A stretch of 23,370 nt of DNA, from positions 1 through 23,370 of the forward strand of contig JAODMX010000271.1 in NCBI GenBank assembly GCA_025464735.1, given 5' to 3'. The notes under the pieces were generated by a model. That model saw nothing but the letters and a program-made list of their open reading frames with translations. It was not told where the DNA came from and made no database searches. The translations under genes were made by a program, and so were the position numbers. Position 1 is the stretch's first letter. The number at the start of each line of letters is the position of its first letter. The DNA is from Frondihabitans sp. (GTDB taxonomy: Bacteria; Actinomycetota; Actinomycetes; Actinomycetales; Microbacteriaceae). Below, piece after piece: positions 14,618 to 23,284 of this stretch.

Positions 14618-15652
14618 ATGCGATACGTGATCATCGGCGCGGGTGCCATCGGCGGAACGCTCGGCGGACGCCTTGCGCAACACAGTCCACACCCGCCGCT
14701 TCTGATCGCGCGAGGAGACCACGGCGCAGCGATCGCCGCCAACGGACTCCGGCTCCGCTCGCCCGACGACGACACAGTGGTGCGCGTCTCCGTCGCGTCG
14801 AATCCAGCAGACGTGACGCTGCTCGACGACGACGTGCTGGTGTTCGCCACGAAAACACAGCAGATCGAAGACGCCGTGCTTCAGTGGGTCGACCAACCTG
14901 TGGTGTCCGCGAGTTCTTCGCTCCTCGTGGGAACGGCCGGCGACCTGCTCCCCGTCTTCACCGCACTCAACGGCATCGAGAGTGAACGGATCGCTCTGCG
15001 GTACTTCCGCCGGGTCTTCGGAATCTGCGTCTGGCTGCCCGCCGTGCACCTGACCGCGGGCGAGGTCGCGGTTCGCATCGCACCCACGAGCGGCACCTTC
15101 ATCATCGGGCGGTACGGTGCTCGCGCCGATGCTTCTGACAGGGCGCTTCTTACGACGCTCGCCGCCGACTGGGAAGCCTCGACGTTCCGAGTCTTCGTGG
15201 TCGACGACGTCATGCCGTGGAAGCACCGCAAGCTTCTGGCGAACCTCGGCAACGCAGTGCAGGCGCTGCTCGGGCCGTCGTTCTCGCCGTCACTCATGCC
15301 GAGGATCAGAGCCGAGGCGGAAGAGACCTTCCGGACCGCCGGCATCACCATGCCGAGCGACGCGGACGAGGAAGAATGGCGGGGCGACGTCTTCAGCACA
15401 CGGCCCATCCCAGGGCTCGAAGGGTCGCTGGGGGGATCCTCGTGGCAATCACTGCAACGCGGAGCCGGGTCGATCGAGACGGACTTCCTCAACGGGGAGA
15501 TCGCGCTCCTGGCGCGATCCCAGGGGCGTGACGCGCCGCTGAACGCCACGGTTCAGCGTCTCGCGCGACAGGCGAGCGCGAAGGGTACGGGCGCAGGGTC
15601 GATGGCCGAAGCCGAGCTGACGGCCGAGCTCGACGCGGCACTCCGGCCCTGA
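14618..15652 (+). CDS. Ketopantoate reductase-like (ApbA/PanE family) oxidoreductase
   Basis: A 344-residue NADPH-dependent reductase of the ApbA/PanE family. It opens with the Rossmann motif YVIIGAGAIGGTLGGRL. The central helix WKHRKLLANLGNAVQALLG holds the expected catalytic lysine, and the C-terminal ETDFLNGEIALLARSQG matches the substrate-binding helix. It is longer than true PanE (about 300) and diverges from the second family member at 15958, so a different 2-oxo-acid substrate is likely. The ATG at 14618 has no Shine-Dalgarno; CACGCT lies six bases upstream, a weaker version of the leaderless pattern. It is divergent from the DUF1294 gene with 64 bases between starts. Confidence 0.82.
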   Translation: MRYVIIGAGAIGGTLGGRLAQHSPHPPLLIARGDHGAAIAANGLRLRSPDDDTVVRVSVASNPADVTLLDDDVLVFATKTQQIEDAVLQWVDQPVVSASSSLLVGTAGDLLPVFTALNGIESERIALRYFRRVFGICVWLPAVHLTAGEVAVRIAPTSGTFIIGRYGARADASDRALLTTLAADWEASTFRVFVVDDVMPWKHRKLLANLGNAVQALLGPSFSPSLMPRIRAEAEETFRTAGITMPSDADEEEWRGDVFSTRPIPGLEGSLGGSSWQSLQRGAGSIETDFLNGEIALLARSQGRDAPLNATVQRLARQASAKGTGAGSMAEAELTAELDAALRP

Positions 15653-15957: not shown

Positions 15958-16878
15958 ATGCGAACTTTGGTGGTCGGAGCAGGGGCAGTCGGCGGCTACT
16001 TCGGGGCACACCTGGTCGACGCCGGTCGCGACGTCACCTTCCTCGTCCGCGAGCAACGCGCCCAGCTGATCCGCCGCAATGGCCTCACCGTGACACAGCC
16101 TGGCGGTCGCCTTCACGTGGCGCCGAGTGCCGTCACCGCTGCCGAACTCGACAGCACCTTCGACCTGATCCTCCTTTCGGTCAAGTCGTTCGGACTCGAG
16201 GAGGCCATGACTGATCTCGCGCCCGCGATCGGACCGCAGACGGTGATCGTGCCACTGCTGAACGGGATGCGCCACGTGGCGACACTCCAGCAGCGATTCG
16301 GCCGCGAACACATCCTCGGCGGTCTGTGCCTCGTCGTCACGCAGCTCGACGCCGACGGCACGATTCGACAGCTTGCCACCGGCGCCAGCGTGGCCTACGG
16401 CGAGCTCGATGGCACGATCTCCGAACGGGCCGAGGAGGTCGACGCAGAACTCAGCGGCGCAGGCTTCACAACAGAGCTGACCGAGGCGATCCAACTACGC
16501 ATGTGGGAGAAGTGGCTGCTGCTCGCCTCGGGCGGTGCCCTGACCACCCTTCTTCGCGGGGACGTCGGCGCGATCGAAGCCGTCCCGAACGGGGTGGACA
16601 CGGCCAGGGCCATCATCGGCGAGGCGCTCGCCGTCGCAACCGCGTCCGGGTATGAGCCACGCCCGGAGACTCTCGCGCGCGTCACGAAGACGCTGACGGC
16701 ACCCGGATCCTCGTTCTCCACCTCCATGTACCGGGATCTCATCGTCGGGAACGATGTCGAGGCCGAACAGATCCTGGGCGACCTGGTCGTCCGCGCAAAG
16801 GGACTCGGGCTCACAACGCCGCTCTTCGCTGCAGCCGACGCCGGGCTCGAGGTCTACCGGGCTGGCCGCGCATCCTGA
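15958..16878 (+). CDS. 2-dehydropantoate 2-reductase (PanE/ApbA family)
   Basis: A 306-residue protein with the length and motifs of ketopantoate reductase, which makes pantoate for coenzyme A with NADPH. It shows LVVGAGAVGGYFGAHL (4-19), LLSVKSFGLEEA, PLLNGM (99-104), the probable catalytic Lys185 in MWEKWLLLAS, and the C-terminal set SFSTSMYRDLIVGNDVEAEQ (252-271) with Glu268 as the likely substrate-binding acid. It fits the classic PanE pattern better than the homologue at 14618, though many bacteria carry family members of other specificity and no other pantothenate gene is nearby. The 3' end overlaps the convergent DUF2236 gene by 25 bases. Confidence 0.87.
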   Translation: MRTLVVGAGAVGGYFGAHLVDAGRDVTFLVREQRAQLIRRNGLTVTQPGGRLHVAPSAVTAAELDSTFDLILLSVKSFGLEEAMTDLAPAIGPQTVIVPLLNGMRHVATLQQRFGREHILGGLCLVVTQLDADGTIRQLATGASVAYGELDGTISERAEEVDAELSGAGFTTELTEAIQLRMWEKWLLLASGGALTTLLRGDVGAIEAVPNGVDTARAIIGEALAVATASGYEPRPETLARVTKTLTAPGSSFSTSMYRDLIVGNDVEAEQILGDLVVRAKGLGLTTPLFAAADAGLEVYRAGRAS

Positions 16879-17711
16879 CGGCTTCGCCTCGGAACATCTG
16901 GGGCGGCGAGACGGCGCAATCGCCGAAGGTAGTGCCGTTGCGGCCACGTCCGAACACGGCCGGGCAAGCGCGGATAGATCACGGAGACGACGGCCCAGAG
17001 GTGATCGAGTCGGCGGCGATCGCGAGGGCTCCAGTTCATTGCGAACTGCTCTCGAACCTCGCGCGGCAACAGCCCCGCGGTGACGAAGCGGTTGAGCGGC
17101 ATGAGCCGTTGAACCCAGGACGGTGCCGTCTCCGCCCGCCACAGGGCATCGGCCTGCGCACGAACCGTGTCGTCGACGGCGAGGCGCTGCGTGGCCGCGC
17201 GCCAGTAGCTCGCGAACGCCGCGCGATCGGCGGGCCATGCTTCCGCAGGGACCTCGAGGGCAGTACCGAGCGACGCGTAGCGCGCGTAAACCTCGTCTGC
17301 GCGCGCCTCGGGGAGGTGGCCGAGCACGCGCTCATAGACGAGCATTGCTGTGTCGTAAAGAGTGGCCGCCACCCAGAGCTGGAGCTCGGGGTCGCGGGCA
17401 TCGTACGGCGGGATTGTCGCGTCGCCTGGATCGACTCGCCGAGGATCCTCTTGTCGAGGATCCGGACCATGGACCGGCCCGTGCATCTTGGTCACGAACG
17501 ACACCGCGATCTCGCGGTCGGTCGGCGTGCCCGCCATGACGGCGTAGACGTACATCAGGGTGCCGTGGAGCCGACCCATCGGGTTGCGAGCGAAGTCGCT
17601 GTGCCGCGCCACGCCATGGCCGACCTCGGCGCGCGCAAGCTGCAGAAGGATTGCGCGGCCGGCTCCGGCGAGGATCACTGCCTCCGACCATGGGTCGATC
17701 GAACGGGACAC
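16854..17711 (-). CDS. DUF2236 / MpaB-type oxygenase family protein
   Basis: A 285-residue protein of the DUF2236 family (ER-bound oxygenase MpaB / latex-clearing-protein-like domain), whose characterised members bind heme b and carry out oxidative cleavage. Visible landmarks are GRLHGTLMYVYAVMAGTP (46-63), VTKMHGPVHG (73-82) with His77 and His81, and YDARDPELQLWVAATLYDTA, the usual family core. A predicted mostly helical body and a very basic C-terminus (RRLRRLAAPDVPRRSRQ) follow. The GTG at 17711 sits six bases after TAACCT, the leaderless pattern. The substrate is unknown. The tail lies on the end of the reductase gene. Confidence 0.82.
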   Translation of the reverse strand: MSRSIDPWSEAVILAGAGRAILLQLARAEVGHGVARHSDFARNPMGRLHGTLMYVYAVMAGTPTDREIAVSFVTKMHGPVHGPDPRQEDPRRVDPGDATIPPYDARDPELQLWVAATLYDTAMLVYERVLGHLPEARADEVYARYASLGTALEVPAEAWPADRAAFASYWRAATQRLAVDDTVRAQADALWRAETAPSWVQRLMPLNRFVTAGLLPREVREQFAMNWSPRDRRRLDHLWAVVSVIYPRLPGRVRTWPQRHYLRRLRRLAAPDVPRRSRQDARPAR

Positions 17712-18023: not shown

Positions 18024-18132
18024 AGGGTGGCAGACACCACCTCTCGTCCACAGGGGGCGGGTGGCGCCCGTCTCTCCACAGATCGAGCTCCGACCCCGAC
18101 GAGAGCGGCCGCAGCCGAGCCACGCTGTCGGC

Positions 18133-19155
18133 ATGACCACGATCTCCGCCCTCGTCAGGGCCCACGGGCACGGACTCCTTCACAAACGACAGCTTGTTCG
18201 CCTCGGCGCGAGCGATCGAGATCTGACGGAGGCCGTGCGGTCTGGTGACGTCCGGCGCGCGCGGAGAGGGTGGTACACCACCTTCGAGCCTCGCGATCCC
18301 CGGTTCGTCGCGGTACGCGTGGGCGGGCGCCTCACCGGCGCCGCGGCCCTCGACATCCTGGGAGCCTGGAACTCGGGAACACCGCGAATCTCTGTCTCTG
18401 TCCCATCCAACGCGGCGCGCCTGCGTCGGCGGCCGGGCGTTCGGGTGGTCTGGGACGACGAAGGAGTCTTTCGTCGAGGGTCAAGCTGGGCGGTGGACCC
18501 CCATGACGCGCTCCGCGAGGCGTTGCTCGAGGTACCGTTCGAAGAAGCCGTCGCCCTGATCGACTGGGCTCTGCACTCGGAACTGCTTTCCCTCGACGAG
18601 GTGCCAGGCATCGTGAGCCGCCTACCGATCGATGCTCGGCGAATCGTCGATTGGGTCGATCCCGACTGCGAAAGCATCGGCGAGAGCATCACGCGAACGC
18701 GTCTCCGCGCAGCCGGCTACGAGGTCACCAGCCAGGAGCCTGTCAACGGCCACCAGCGAATCGATCTCGTCGTCAACGATGTGGTCGCCGTCGAGGTGGA
18801 TGGACGTACCTTCCACGAATCAACATTCGAATCCGACCGGACGAAAGACCTCGCGATGGTCCGCGAGGGGCGCATCGCTCTCCGTTTCAGCTACTCGATG
18901 ATCAGAACGCTCTGGTCTCAGATCGTGGTCGCCATCGAGGCGGCGGTGCGCATGCACCGGCGTGGAGGAACCGCTTGTGTCGGCAACTCAGGCTCGAACC
19001 TGCCAAGGGCGTGCGATGGTGGCCGCGCCTGGCGGATCCCAGCCCGGAGCCGGTCGGCCAGCCCTGAATTGCCGCGGGGTCGCAGCCGACGGACGCCGCT
19101 GGGGCGCCACCGTCGGTCCGGCGGCTACCGCTACCTCGGTACGATCGTCGGGTGA
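18133..19155 (+). CDS. AbiEi-like winged-helix and DUF559-type (PD-(D/E)XK) nuclease-fold protein, extended C-terminus
   Basis: A 340-residue protein. The N-terminus (1-60, ISALVRAHGHGLLHKRQL then GASDRDLTEAVRSGDV and RARRGWY) matches the AbiEi antitoxin-type winged helix. Residues 180-260 look like the Vsr/DUF559 nuclease fold: Glu184 in SIGESITR, Asp211 in RIDLVV, Glu221 and Asp223 in VEVDG, then RTKDLAMVREG. Such fusions are common in Actinobacteria and their role is unsettled; no AbiEii toxin gene is beside it. Family members normally end soon after the helix ending near residue 278 (AIEAAVRMHRR). Here the frame runs on through inverted-repeat copy C (from residue 283) to a TGA that overlaps the CLC start by four bases, so about 58 C-terminal residues are low-complexity and probably acquired. 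The ATG at 18133 has CACGCT six bases upstream. Confidence 0.75.
   Translation: MTTISALVRAHGHGLLHKRQLVRLGASDRDLTEAVRSGDVRRARRGWYTTFEPRDPRFVAVRVGGRLTGAAALDILGAWNSGTPRISVSVPSNAARLRRRPGVRVVWDDEGVFRRGSSWAVDPHDALREALLEVPFEEAVALIDWALHSELLSLDEVPGIVSRLPIDARRIVDWVDPDCESIGESITRTRLRAAGYEVTSQEPVNGHQRIDLVVNDVVAVEVDGRTFHESTFESDRTKDLAMVREGRIALRFSYSMIRTLWSQIVVAIEAAVRMHRRGGTACVGNSGSNLPRACDGGRAWRIPARSRSASPELPRGRSRRTPLGRHRRSGGYRYLGTIVG
18980..19075. repeat. Inverted-repeat element, copy C (96 bp, inside a coding frame)
   Basis: The left arm TCGGCAACTCAGG and right arm CCTGAATTGCCGC bound 96 bases, 12 more than the other copies. The left arm and its flank match copy D at about 20 of 22 positions. It lies within the open frame of the AbiEi-like gene and appears to have removed or displaced its original stop. 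Confidence 0.7.
19140..19145 (+). promoter_or_regulatory. -10 element TACGAT, leaderless start of the CLC gene
   Basis: TACGAT, six bases (CGTCGG), then GTG at 19152. It is inside the C-terminal extension of the upstream frame and has no Shine-Dalgarno, which supports separate transcription of the CLC gene. Confidence 0.5.
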
Positions 19156-20796: not shown

Positions 20797-21225
20797 ATGA
20801 GCACGTCCACCAGCCTCAGCCAGTCCCCGAACCGGCTGCTCGGCATCGTCGTCGGTATCATCTTCCTGCTGATCGGCCTCCTAGGCTTCTTCATCGCCAC
20901 GCCGTACCCCTTCGCAACGCCCCAGGGTGGTGTGCTGATCGGACTATTCGCCTCGAACGCCCTGCTCGCCTCGATTCATGTCGTGATCGGCGGTTTCCTG
21001 CTGATCTGCGCCCTTGCCGCCCGTCTCCCGGCCAAAATCGTCAACTTCATCGTCGGTATCGGCCTCTTCGCGTTCGGTGTCTTCGGTCTCTTCGCGTCCG
21101 ACACGAGCGCCAACATCTTCGCCATCAATTCCGCTGACACCGTGCTGCACTTCCTCGCCGGCCTCCTCCTCGCAGTCGCCGCCCTCGCAACCGACAAGGT
21201 GCTCTTCCAGCCGAAGACGGCCTGA
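20797..21225 (+). CDS. DUF4383 four-helix membrane protein
   Basis: A 142-residue hydrophobic protein with about four membrane helices (near 14-34, 47-73, 80-100 and 115-131). The LLGIVVGIIFLLIGLLGFF start, the IHVVIGGFLLICAL middle and a final VLHFLAGLLLAVAAL match the DUF4383 pattern of actinobacterial membrane proteins. It has no known function. The ATG at 20797 follows GGAGG by about 9 bases. It is preceded by a repeat-rich gap and followed, 89 bases later, by the heme oxygenase gene, which seems to have its own promoter. Confidence 0.8.
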   Translation: MSTSTSLSQSPNRLLGIVVGIIFLLIGLLGFFIATPYPFATPQGGVLIGLFASNALLASIHVVIGGFLLICALAARLPAKIVNFIVGIGLFAFGVFGLFASDTSANIFAINSADTVLHFLAGLLLAVAALATDKVLFQPKTA

Positions 21226-21253: not shown

Positions 21254-21273
21254 CTAGGGTAAGGGTCACCTAA
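21254..21273. promoter_or_regulatory. DtxR/IdeR-like iron box overlapping a -10 element
   Basis: CTAGGGTAAGGGTCACCTAA has both half-sites of the actinobacterial iron box (TTAGGNTA and TNACCTAA, one mismatch on the left) but with one more base between them than the 19-bp consensus. The -10 element TAGGGT (21255-21260) lies within it, so binding would block transcription of the heme oxygenase gene when iron is plentiful. Iron control of heme oxygenases is known in Corynebacterium; here it is inferred. Confidence 0.45.
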
Positions 21274-21314: not shown

Positions 21315-21977
21315 ATGTCGGTGGCCATACCGTTCTCGCAAGCTCTGCGCGAGCGCACGGGGTCCCGCAGGCGCGTGGACGGCCCGAGCGCCTCGGAGCG
21401 GTTCATGACCGATCTCATGACAGGTCGGCGAAGTCGCGACGACTACGTGGCTCTCGTCGCGCAGAACTTCTTCGTCTACCGGGCTCTCGAGCGGGCGGCC
21501 GAGCGACGAGCCGACGATCCCGTCGCTCGCTTGTTCATCTCCCCCGCCCTGACGCGACTGCCCGCGATCGGCCACGACCTGAACTTTCTCATGGGCGACG
21601 ACTGGGCGGAGCGGATCGCCCCACTCGCGACGACGGAAAGCTACGTTACGAGGATCGAGACGGTCGCCGCCACGACGACCGGCGGCTTCGTCGCCCACCA
21701 CTACACGCGCTACCTCGGCGATCTCTCGGGCTGCACGATCATCCGAACCCTGATGCAGCGGCAGTTCGGCTTCGAGACGAACGGCGTCGGCTTCTACCTC
21801 TTCGCCGGGATCGCGCGCCCCAAGGAATTCAAGTCGACCTACCGTTCGCAACTGGACGCGGTCGGCTGGTCGGAGGAGGAGCGTGAGCGCGTCATCGACG
21901 AGGTCGGCGTCGCCTACCGGCTGACGGAGGAACTCTTCGAAGAGCTCGACTCGACCAGGGCCACAACCGCGGCCTGA
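21315..21977 (+). CDS. Heme oxygenase (HmuO-like) family protein lacking the proximal histidine
   Basis: A 220-residue homologue of bacterial heme oxygenase, which degrades heme to biliverdin, CO and iron. Long stretches follow HmuO: SQALRERT, FMTDLMTGR, FVYRALE, VAHHYTRYLGDLSG (126-139), LMQRQFGF and GFYLFAGIA. Two key places differ. The helix that should carry the heme-ligand His (near 19-22) reads TGSRRRVDGPSASERFM, with the first His of the protein at 87. The distal glycine motif is GDLSGC (135-140) rather than GDLSGG. Asp136 is kept. I saw no alternative frame that restores the usual His-Glu-x-Ala-Glu pattern, so a simple frameshift does not explain it. The ATG at 21315 has GAGAGG upstream. 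Its 3' end is two bases from the convergent helicase gene. Activity on heme is therefore doubtful. Confidence 0.88.
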   Translation: MSVAIPFSQALRERTGSRRRVDGPSASERFMTDLMTGRRSRDDYVALVAQNFFVYRALERAAERRADDPVARLFISPALTRLPAIGHDLNFLMGDDWAERIAPLATTESYVTRIETVAATTTGGFVAHHYTRYLGDLSGCTIIRTLMQRQFGFETNGVGFYLFAGIARPKEFKSTYRSQLDAVGWSEEERERVIDEVGVAYRLTEELFEELDSTRATTAA

Positions 21978-21979
21978 GC

Positions 21980-23284
21980 CTAGCCGCCGACCGACGCCGC
22001 CTGGATCGCGGGAACTCGCGTGGCCTGGCTCATGAACCGCCGCACATCGAGGTCGACGATGATGTCGCTCGGTCGCAGCGGACGAGACAGGTAGAGGCCC
22101 TCGAGCGAGGTGATGCGGCTCAGGGCGACGTAGGTTTGACCGGCGCTGAACACGCGCGACCCGAGGTCGACGATGGCTCGATCGTACGTCTTGCCCTGTG
22201 ATTTGTGGATCGTCACCGCCCAAGCGAGCCGAAGGGGGAACTGCTGGAACTCGGCGACGATATCTTTTTTCAGCTCCTTCGTCGTGGCCGAATAGGAGTA
22301 CTTGAACTTCTCCCAGACGGCCGGCTGCACCTCGACCTCCTCACCGTCGATCTCGACGAACACGGTGTCTCTGATTTTCGTGACGACGCCGACACTGCCA
22401 TTGACCCAGCGCTGGTCCGAGTCGTTGCGCAGGAACATCACCTGGGCACCGGTCTTCAGCTCGAGCGCCTCGTCGGCCGGGAAGGCTCGCCCGGTGAAGT
22501 CGCCGGTTACCTCGGCCTTGGCCGTCTTGACTCTCCCCGGCAGGCGCTCGAGCTCGACCTTGTTGATGCGGTTGACCGTGTCGTTGCGCGTGGCGAGCGT
22601 GATCGCCCCGTCGGTCGGTGCCGGCCTGGCGCCCGCAGAATTGAGTTCAGCGGCGATCTCCGCCGTCACCCGCCCGTGCCGCACGGCATTGAGCATCTCC
22701 TTGAAGGCGGCGTCGCTCTGGCGGTGGATGAAGGCGAGCTCCAGGATCCGGAGCGGCGCGTCGTCCCAGACGTGGGCGTCAAAGAACCACATGGAGCGGT
22801 AGTGATCGGTGAAGTACGCGCGCTCGTCGGCGTCGCCGGGCACGGGTGCCAACTGGTACGGGTCGCCGAAGAGGACGACCTGGACACCGCCGAACGGCTC
22901 GTTGCGTCGCTGCCGAGCCTGACGCAACGACCGGTCGATCGCGTCGACGAGATCGGCGTTGACCATCGAGACCTCGTCGATGACGAGAGTGTCGATGGTG
23001 TTGAGGAGTTTGCGAAGCTCGGAGTTCTGCTCGATGTCGTGATCGGCGATCAACCCGATAGGGAGCCGGAACAGCGAATGGATCGTCTGCCCGCCGACGT
23101 TGAGGGCGGCCACGCCCGTCGGCGCACAGATCACGATCTGCTTCGAGGTGTTCCACGAGAGATGGTTGAGGAGTGTCGACTTGCCGGTGCCCGCGCGGCC
23201 TGTGACGAAGATGTGCTCGCGGGTGTTCTCGATGGCAGCATAGACAGCCGCCTGCTCGGCAGACAGTTCTGGCGCCACACTCAC
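21980..23284 (-). CDS. Pif1-like ATP-dependent DNA helicase (superfamily 1B)
   Basis: A 434-residue helicase. Motif I is VTGRAGTGKST (27-37, Lys35), motif Ia CAPTGVAALNVGGQTIHS, motif II LVIDEVSMV, motif III FGDPYQLAPV, motif IV-like FIHRQSDAAFKEMLN, motif V VTIHKSQGKTYDRAIVDLG and motif VI YVALSRI. These fit the Pif1/RecD2 group, which unwinds DNA 5' to 3', often at G-quadruplexes and R-loops. It is shorter than many members, without the long N- or C-terminal extensions. The GTG at 23284 gives the longest form; a second GTG at 23280 is also possible, with an AGGAG-like signal crowded against both. TAGATT at 23308-23313 is a probable -10. It converges on the heme oxygenase gene with two bases between the stops. 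Confidence 0.9.
   Translation of the reverse strand: MSVAPELSAEQAAVYAAIENTREHIFVTGRAGTGKSTLLNHLSWNTSKQIVICAPTGVAALNVGGQTIHSLFRLPIGLIADHDIEQNSELRKLLNTIDTLVIDEVSMVNADLVDAIDRSLRQARQRRNEPFGGVQVVLFGDPYQLAPVPGDADERAYFTDHYRSMWFFDAHVWDDAPLRILELAFIHRQSDAAFKEMLNAVRHGRVTAEIAAELNSAGARPAPTDGAITLATRNDTVNRINKVELERLPGRVKTAKAEVTGDFTGRAFPADEALELKTGAQVMFLRNDSDQRWVNGSVGVVTKIRDTVFVEIDGEEVEVQPAVWEKFKYSYSATTKELKKDIVAEFQQFPLRLAWAVTIHKSQGKTYDRAIVDLGSRVFSAGQTYVALSRITSLEGLYLSRPLRPSDIIVDLDVRRFMSQATRVPAIQAASVGG

Follow-up and report, generated by a model that had tools for sequence, protein, structure and literature searches.

Introduction

The proximal histidine is treated as a conserved ligand of heme oxygenases (HOs), the PF01126 proteins described from Corynebacterium diphtheriae (HmuO) and from mammals (HO-1). 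HO relatives without this residue are already known from eukaryotes, and pseudo-HOs lacking the histidine or activity occur in multiple organisms, as stated in one paper (PMC11634067). Here, we analyzed a window, i.e. the whole stretch of 23,370 nucleotides of contig JAODMX010000271.1 (assembly GCA_025464735.1, positions 1 to 23,370) from Frondihabitans sp., a member of the Microbacteriaceae (the bacterial family, below). It encodes an HO family protein of 220 residues without proximal histidine (21315..21977, + strand, ATG start). Similar proteins form a conserved group in Frondihabitans, Rathayibacter, Clavibacter and Frigoribacterium-type bacteria, and searches of the open-licence PubMed Central (PMC) literature turned up no paper on a His-less HO in these genera. 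New is the combination of an intact distal site, an iron-box-like promoter, a usual sole copy and a coordinated pocket change. In databases, many of these proteins carry the name heme oxygenase or the label 'biliverdin-producing'; the latter is unsupported. We tentatively favor, at a confidence short of even, that the protein may still handle heme catalytically or nearly so, with something other than a protein histidine holding the iron.

Results

The gene product was assigned by its Pfam match to PF01126 (E = 1.4e-47, 162.6 bits, with the cut-off at 23); the NCBIfam search matched no model. The structure model is predicted to adopt the HO fold. A first-pass annotation of this DNA had claimed that residues 1-86 contain no histidine and that the proximal ligand is gone. 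This was borne out, as histidine is found only at positions 87, 128 and 129, and the axial His of canonical HOs is missing. Canonical relatives carry a proximal segment such as RTWSGHGDSEGAGFM, with the His 8 residues before a conserved Phe (position F-8), where the window protein reads RTGSRRRVDGPSASERFM. The remodelled stretch TGSRRRVDGPSASER (codons 15-29, 21357..21401, + strand) corresponds to the part of canonical HOs that holds the axial His and a conserved Glu four residues on. The sole cysteine, Cys140 (codon 21732..21734, + strand), takes the place of the second glycine of the distal GDLSGG motif.

The missing histidine is not a reading error. Proteins P0001-P0024 (P0001 is the window protein) share the frame and GDL[SA]GC, in agreement with the earlier view that no frameshift is involved, and none has a His at the canonical site; in P0002, P0003 and P0021 a His lies at F-10 or F-11, off the F-8 position. 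Frame +1 contains a WTA stretch resembling the canonical segment; an N-terminal frameshift was rejected, as the homologues use the annotated frame. A sequencing or assembly error might be suspected in a window that is one contig. It is refuted by independent homologues at 86, 83 and 82% identity with the identical His-less frame and GDLSGC, and we regard its probability as negligible. A hidden substitute His ligand was likewise rejected: the only histidines conserved across the main His-less set are His128 and His129, and canonical HOs conserve these to the same degree. The HO-1 counterpart of His128, His132, forms a salt bridge with Glu202, according to a structural survey (PMC5623701), and His128 is therefore not a likely ligand.

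Whether the His-less form represents a conserved clade had been raised as a check, and the answer is yes for the HOs of Frondihabitans, Rathayibacter, Clavibacter and Frigoribacterium type. In the list of the best 120 out of 2996 homologues, the first 24 rows, window included, lack a His at the canonical site and all have Cys140. In a set of 80 loci of named genomes, His-less HOs were present in Frondihabitans (L001-L003), Frigoribacterium endophyticum (L009) and Rathayibacter (L034-L037, L040, L049, L051); His and GDLSGG are kept in Herbiconiux, Subtercola, Agreia, Leifsonia, Microbacterium, Mycetocola and others. A protein of Frigoribacterium sp. UYMn621 (P0028) is canonical both at the His and in GDLSGG, and it clusters with a record of Glaciihabitans; therefore, not every record under the Frigoribacterium name is His-less. 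Across 291 unique sequences (334 before identical rows were removed; database proteins and same-species loci are mixed, which makes the counts non-independent), 212 had His with Gly140, 63 had no His with Cys140 (including P0030, which is N-terminally truncated with an unreadable His site), 16 had no His with Gly140, and none combined His with Cys140. The Glu four residues after the His site, presumably the hydrogen-bond partner of the proximal His, is present in 209/212 canonical proteins compared to 25/79 His-less ones. Within the clade, the proximal segment varies in both length and sequence.

His-less HOs without Cys140 comprise nine distinct loci assigned to the Clavibacter type by a protein search, L157, and L166, L168 and L170 of the Frigoribacterium clade, to which we assign these three and L155 from their position beside L009. 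All 58 Clavibacter or Clavibacter-like proteins P0163-P0220 lack the His and have Gly140. In the Clavibacter-type loci L154, L156, L158, L161, L163-L165, L167 and L169, which lack the proximal His and keep GDLSGG, no adjoining PIF1-like helicase gene was found; many of these HOs are labelled biliverdin-producing in databases.

In a mostly class-wide control set, His and Gly140 were present in 98/98 readable HOs and Asn at position 204 in 97/98. Among these 98 of 105 loci are L175 and four that belong to the family sample; the seven without a readable HO are L274-L279, which are weak matches, and L176. Five further genomes with a match (G512, G641, G589, G576 and G680) lie outside the set. Within the bacterial family, a search found PF01126 in 239/398 genomes. 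An HO was read in 141 of these 239, and 34 were His-less (31 of the clade type, L160 included, and 3 scattered). Further variants may be present among the 98 other family genomes, many of which have low-scoring PF01126 matches. The scattered cases came from 60 further family HOs, 57 of them canonical. In L316 the His is replaced by Arg, in L304 by Gln and in L297 by Glu, the last also having Gly140 replaced by Ser (GDLSGS). All three (L297, L304 and L316; G163, G257 and G213) are apparently young losses in HOs of otherwise canonical type that are Subtercola-like by best match; they keep Asn204 and are the only PF01126 match of their genome. The loss in L316 is very young, because this protein is 98.6% identical to the His-bearing HO L011 of Subtercola boreus. 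From the sequence collections, the Herbiconiux/Subtercola-like proteins P0045, P0063 and P0109 have Asp or Glu at the His site, keep Asn204 and otherwise have a canonical look; P0109 reads GDLSDG. A long-branch HO group (L159, L162 and L171) has the His without the Glu four residues after it; the motif of L159 and L162 is GDLSCG, in which Cys replaces the heme-contacting glycine (human Gly143).

A tree was calculated from hand-chosen representatives (30/48 His-less, 49/84 His-bearing and 19/98 class-wide HOs) after removal of the N-terminal segment and of columns 140 and 203-205, and was rooted on the 19 class-wide HOs; P0109 and the 60 further family HOs, L297, L304 and L316 among them, were left out. 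The His-less rows nest within the His-bearing rows, with a minimum of five changes of the His state. The main His-less group reached a Shimodaira-Hasegawa-like approximate likelihood ratio test (SH-aLRT) value of 81 and in the free tree contains two long-branch His-bearing rows (L159 and L171). Holding the 27 main His-less rows as one clade improved the likelihood by 51 units (p of the approximately unbiased test, p-AU, 0.93). One loss most likely explains the clade of Frondihabitans, Frigoribacterium-type, Rathayibacter and Clavibacter HOs. Separate further losses are seen in the tree for P0045, P0063 and L160, a long-branch row of its own without His and with Cys140, and by resemblance for P0109, L297, L304 and L316. 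The idea of a single loss behind all His-less HOs was overturned by these scattered cases.

The genomic context agrees with a vertical history. A convergent gene for a PIF1-like helicase (PF05970) lies directly downstream in the window (21980..23284, - strand) and serves as synteny marker of the HO locus. It was found at 21/21 His-less loci with Cys140, at 4/13 with Gly140 and at 50/77 canonical loci with room for it; the nine His-less Gly140 loci without the helicase are those of Clavibacter. The loss of the His in the clade thus occurred at the ancestral locus, Clavibacter excepted. A paper on the genome of Rathayibacter toxicus (PMC7143919) puts an HO together with a PIF1-like helicase inside a predicted incomplete phage region. 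We read the HO/helicase region as an ordinary chromosomal locus, because it is spread across the family.

The distal side of the pocket is nearly unchanged. Asp136 (codon 21720..21722, + strand), the counterpart of the distal catalytic Asp140 of human HO-1, is kept in 79/79 His-less proteins, as are Arg132, Gly135, Tyr130, Tyr110, Arg177 and Glu196; Gly139 and Tyr55 are kept in 78/79. The canonical distal set (human Gly139/Asp140/Gly143) is therefore present in the window protein as G135, D136 and G139, and in 79, 79 and 78 of the 79 His-less proteins. Only the second Gly of GDLSGG (human Gly144) is altered, to Cys, as in the window protein, and this in part of the clade. The columns that separate His-less from canonical HOs are the His itself, the Glu four residues on, and positions 203, 204 and 140. 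Residue 203 is Leu in 66/79 His-less proteins compared to Phe in 202/212 canonical ones. Residue 204, by alignment the counterpart of human Asn210, is Thr in the window protein (codon 21924..21926, + strand). It is Asn in 210/212 canonical proteins and Thr or Ser in 76/76 His-less proteins once P0045, P0063 and P0109 are set aside; an exception outside these 76 is the Clavibacter-like P0219, with Asn204 and no His. In HO-1, Asn210 belongs to a distal hydrogen-bond network with Arg136, Asp140, Tyr58 and Tyr114, according to the same survey (PMC5623701). The change at residue 204 seems to be later than the loss of the His, because the young losses keep Asn204. In the structure model, the predicted distal helix is broken at 138-139, with a predicted local distance difference test score (pLDDT) below 50 at 138-142. 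A canonical control modelled on the same 90 sequences gave a continuous predicted helix with similar block means, and we give the break little weight.

Remodelling of both pocket faces (at the proximal segment and residue 204, and at residue 140 in some members of the clade) would also be expected if the protein acted on a different substrate, such as coproheme or an iron-free tetrapyrrole, that needs no His ligand. Tyr134 and Arg183 of HO-1 bond the porphyrin, as stated in PMC5623701. Their counterparts Tyr130 and Arg177 are kept in 79/79 His-less proteins, and nothing points to any particular alternative compound. We consider a change of substrate improbable.

The first-pass annotation had placed Cys140 where a glycine faces the heme. 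The GDLSGC motif is indeed present, whereas the heme-facing part is not supported: the replaced glycine corresponds to human Gly144, and Gly135 and Gly139 are kept. PMC3026835 describes HO-1 Gly144 as a distal-side, highly conserved residue that is called catalytic, is hydrogen-bonded to Asp140 and forms a clique with Lys148 and Phe167; for this reason, a reach of Cys140 to the iron is unproven. Among the 291 unique sequences, Cys140 occurs only in those without His, and the first 80 loci had suggested a perfect coupling of the two changes. This was overturned by Clavibacter and by part of the Frigoribacterium clade, where all five loci are His-less and Cys140 is present in L009 and L155 and absent in L166, L168 and L170. 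Cys140 as the sole replacement ligand throughout the clade was rejected on the same three loci and the 58/58 Clavibacter or Clavibacter-like proteins. Since Clavibacter lacks both His and Cys140, the latter is no universal substitute ligand.

The HO gene of the window is preceded by a DtxR/IdeR-type iron-box-like site, TAGGGTAAGGGTCACCTAA (21255-21273, + strand), which matches 14/19 positions of the DtxR consensus; this score was reached by 0/100 shuffles. With a threshold of at least 13/19, such a site is found in the window, upstream of 34/34 His-less loci and upstream of 85/95 canonical loci, which upholds the earlier proposal of an iron-box-like promoter. A second, normal HO had been suggested as a possibility to check. 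In 29 of the 31 clade-type His-less genomes, among which the genome of the window itself is not counted, no other PF01126 gene was present. A phytochrome as user of bilin was tried and discarded, as phytochrome was found in 1/41 genomes and that genome has its own HO-like gene.

The first-pass annotation had also considered a decaying copy, that is, a gene drifting after the need for it was lost. The variable proximal segment, the somewhat raised ratio of nonsynonymous to synonymous substitution rates (dN/dS) in Frondihabitans pairs and the recurrence of His loss in the bacterial family would fit such a gene. The core dN/dS was 0.06-0.32 in 16 His-less pairs compared to 0.04-0.13 in six canonical pairs (hand-picked). 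The His-less HO is under purifying selection: dN/dS is well below 1 in 16/16 pairs, the frame is open in several genera, the distal site is invariant, and the iron-box-like site is found at 34/34 loci. Decay is thus very improbable. It is the part of the earlier interpretation that was not supported, while the missing His, the conserved clade, the iron-box-like promoter and the usual sole copy stood.

Upstream of the HO gene lies a gene for a DUF4383 protein (20797..21225, + strand), a relative of which is found upstream in 10/18 His-less loci with Cys140 that have room for it. Elsewhere in the window, a protein with an MPAB/Lcp catalytic domain (PF09995, rubber-oxygenase family) is encoded a few kb upstream of the HO gene (16854-17711, - strand). 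Two adjacent ApbA/PanE ketopantoate-reductase-like genes occupy 14618-15652 and 15958-16878 (both + strand), the second being more typical (136.8 compared to 67.6 bits). The protein encoded at 18061-19155 (+ strand) has weak matches, below the cut-off, to AbiEi antitoxin and MTES_1575 nuclease domains.

Discussion

The protein is apparently the ordinary, vertically inherited and iron-controlled HO of its lineage, rebuilt around the loss of the His. In this natural, conserved group of proteins, the active site has its oxygen side preserved and its ligand side discarded, in genomes that usually have no other HO. Because the distal side built for O2 activation is retained, something is presumably still done to a tetrapyrrole there. 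In the sequence of events that we propose, an ancestor would have lost the proximal His together with the Glu four residues on, and the carrier segment became free-form; Asn204 would then have changed to Thr or Ser, and Gly140 to Cys in three of the four groups, wholly or in part. Heme would still enter the HO pocket in iron starvation. The iron might be held by water or a small-molecule base that fills the vacated proximal cavity, which would be possible in all groups; the thiolate of Cys140, reaching in from the distal helix, is a candidate only for the groups that have this residue. Exogenous bases are said to restore activity of the human HO-1 His25Ala mutant (a 1995 paper, going by its title). 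The distal side may still activate O2, possibly at a low rate or to yield a changed product; of the whole proposal, this catalytic step is the least certain. The stronger claim, that the sole HO of several genera works without His by means of an intact distal site and a borrowed base or the Cys140 thiolate as ligand, we judge unlikely; if true, this would be a natural HO whose axial ligand can be replaced or has changed sides.

Alternatively, the pocket may bind heme, protoporphyrin or a bilin without degrading it, and the protein would serve as a tetrapyrrole buffer, carrier or sensor in iron stress. His-less HO relatives of plants and Plasmodium likewise have other roles. We consider this alternative almost as probable as the catalytic reading; it too falls below an even chance. 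The axial ligand and the Glu four residues on are both lost, and residues of the pocket are retained, as expected for binding. Several observations speak for this alternative or otherwise weigh against catalysis. PfHO and AtHO2, which lack the His, are called inactive in PMC11634067. Recent, scattered losses of the His occur elsewhere in the family; this recurrence suggests that these bacteria can do without normal HO turnover, and because of it we slightly lowered the probability given to catalysis and slightly raised that of binding without degradation. Extra His-bearing HOs are present in two genomes. One is G386 of Rathayibacter, whose second HO (L175) shows His, Glu, GDLSGG and Asn204 and aligns as canonical; the other is the Frondihabitans genome G001, where a distant HO-like gene (L176) lies about 1 kb from a phytochrome domain and has a His at the matching place by eye. 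These look as if the His-less HO made no biliverdin; acquired operons could equally explain them. The six Frondihabitans pairs have a dN/dS of 0.18-0.32 compared to 0.04-0.13 in canonical pairs, i.e. a looser constraint. A phylogenetic test for association of Cys140 with the His state found two supported independent pairs, too few for significance. Finally, the HtaA heme-uptake domain was found in 0/16 His-less compared to 5/10 canonical genomes; with HtaA absent from all 16, these HOs may handle endogenous heme. On the other side, PfHO lost the distal Gly-Gly pair, whereas the distal catalytic set of the His-less clade is nearly invariant, and an iron-box-like promoter and a usual sole copy suit an iron-releasing enzyme better.

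Either an HO can work without a His ligand, as in the catalytic reading that we slightly prefer, or bacteria own an iron-controlled pseudo-HO with an unknown job, and both outcomes are informative. The change at residue 204 and the younger losses that lack it form a natural series on the mutual dependence of the two pocket faces.

Compared with C. diphtheriae HmuO and mammalian HO-1, the window protein lacks the proximal His and the Glu four residues on and has Gly140 changed to Cys and Asn204 to Thr, and the proximal segment is variable in its clade. The absence of the axial His is shared with Arabidopsis HO2 and Plasmodium PfHO, as described in PMC11634067. According to the same text, PfHO has Lys-Glu in place of the distal Gly-Gly and AtHO2 occurs beside three active HOs; in contrast, the His-less clade keeps Gly139 and the distal catalytic set, and its gene is usually the sole HO, with an iron-box-like promoter. 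The closest structures include engineered ligand mutants with an HO fold and a replaced axial His, namely human HO-1 H25R (PDB 4wd4, and 5btq with biliverdin) and HmuO H20C with cobalt porphyrin (PDB 9fw4), as given in the titles of their entries. Unlike these laboratory mutants, the clade described here is natural.
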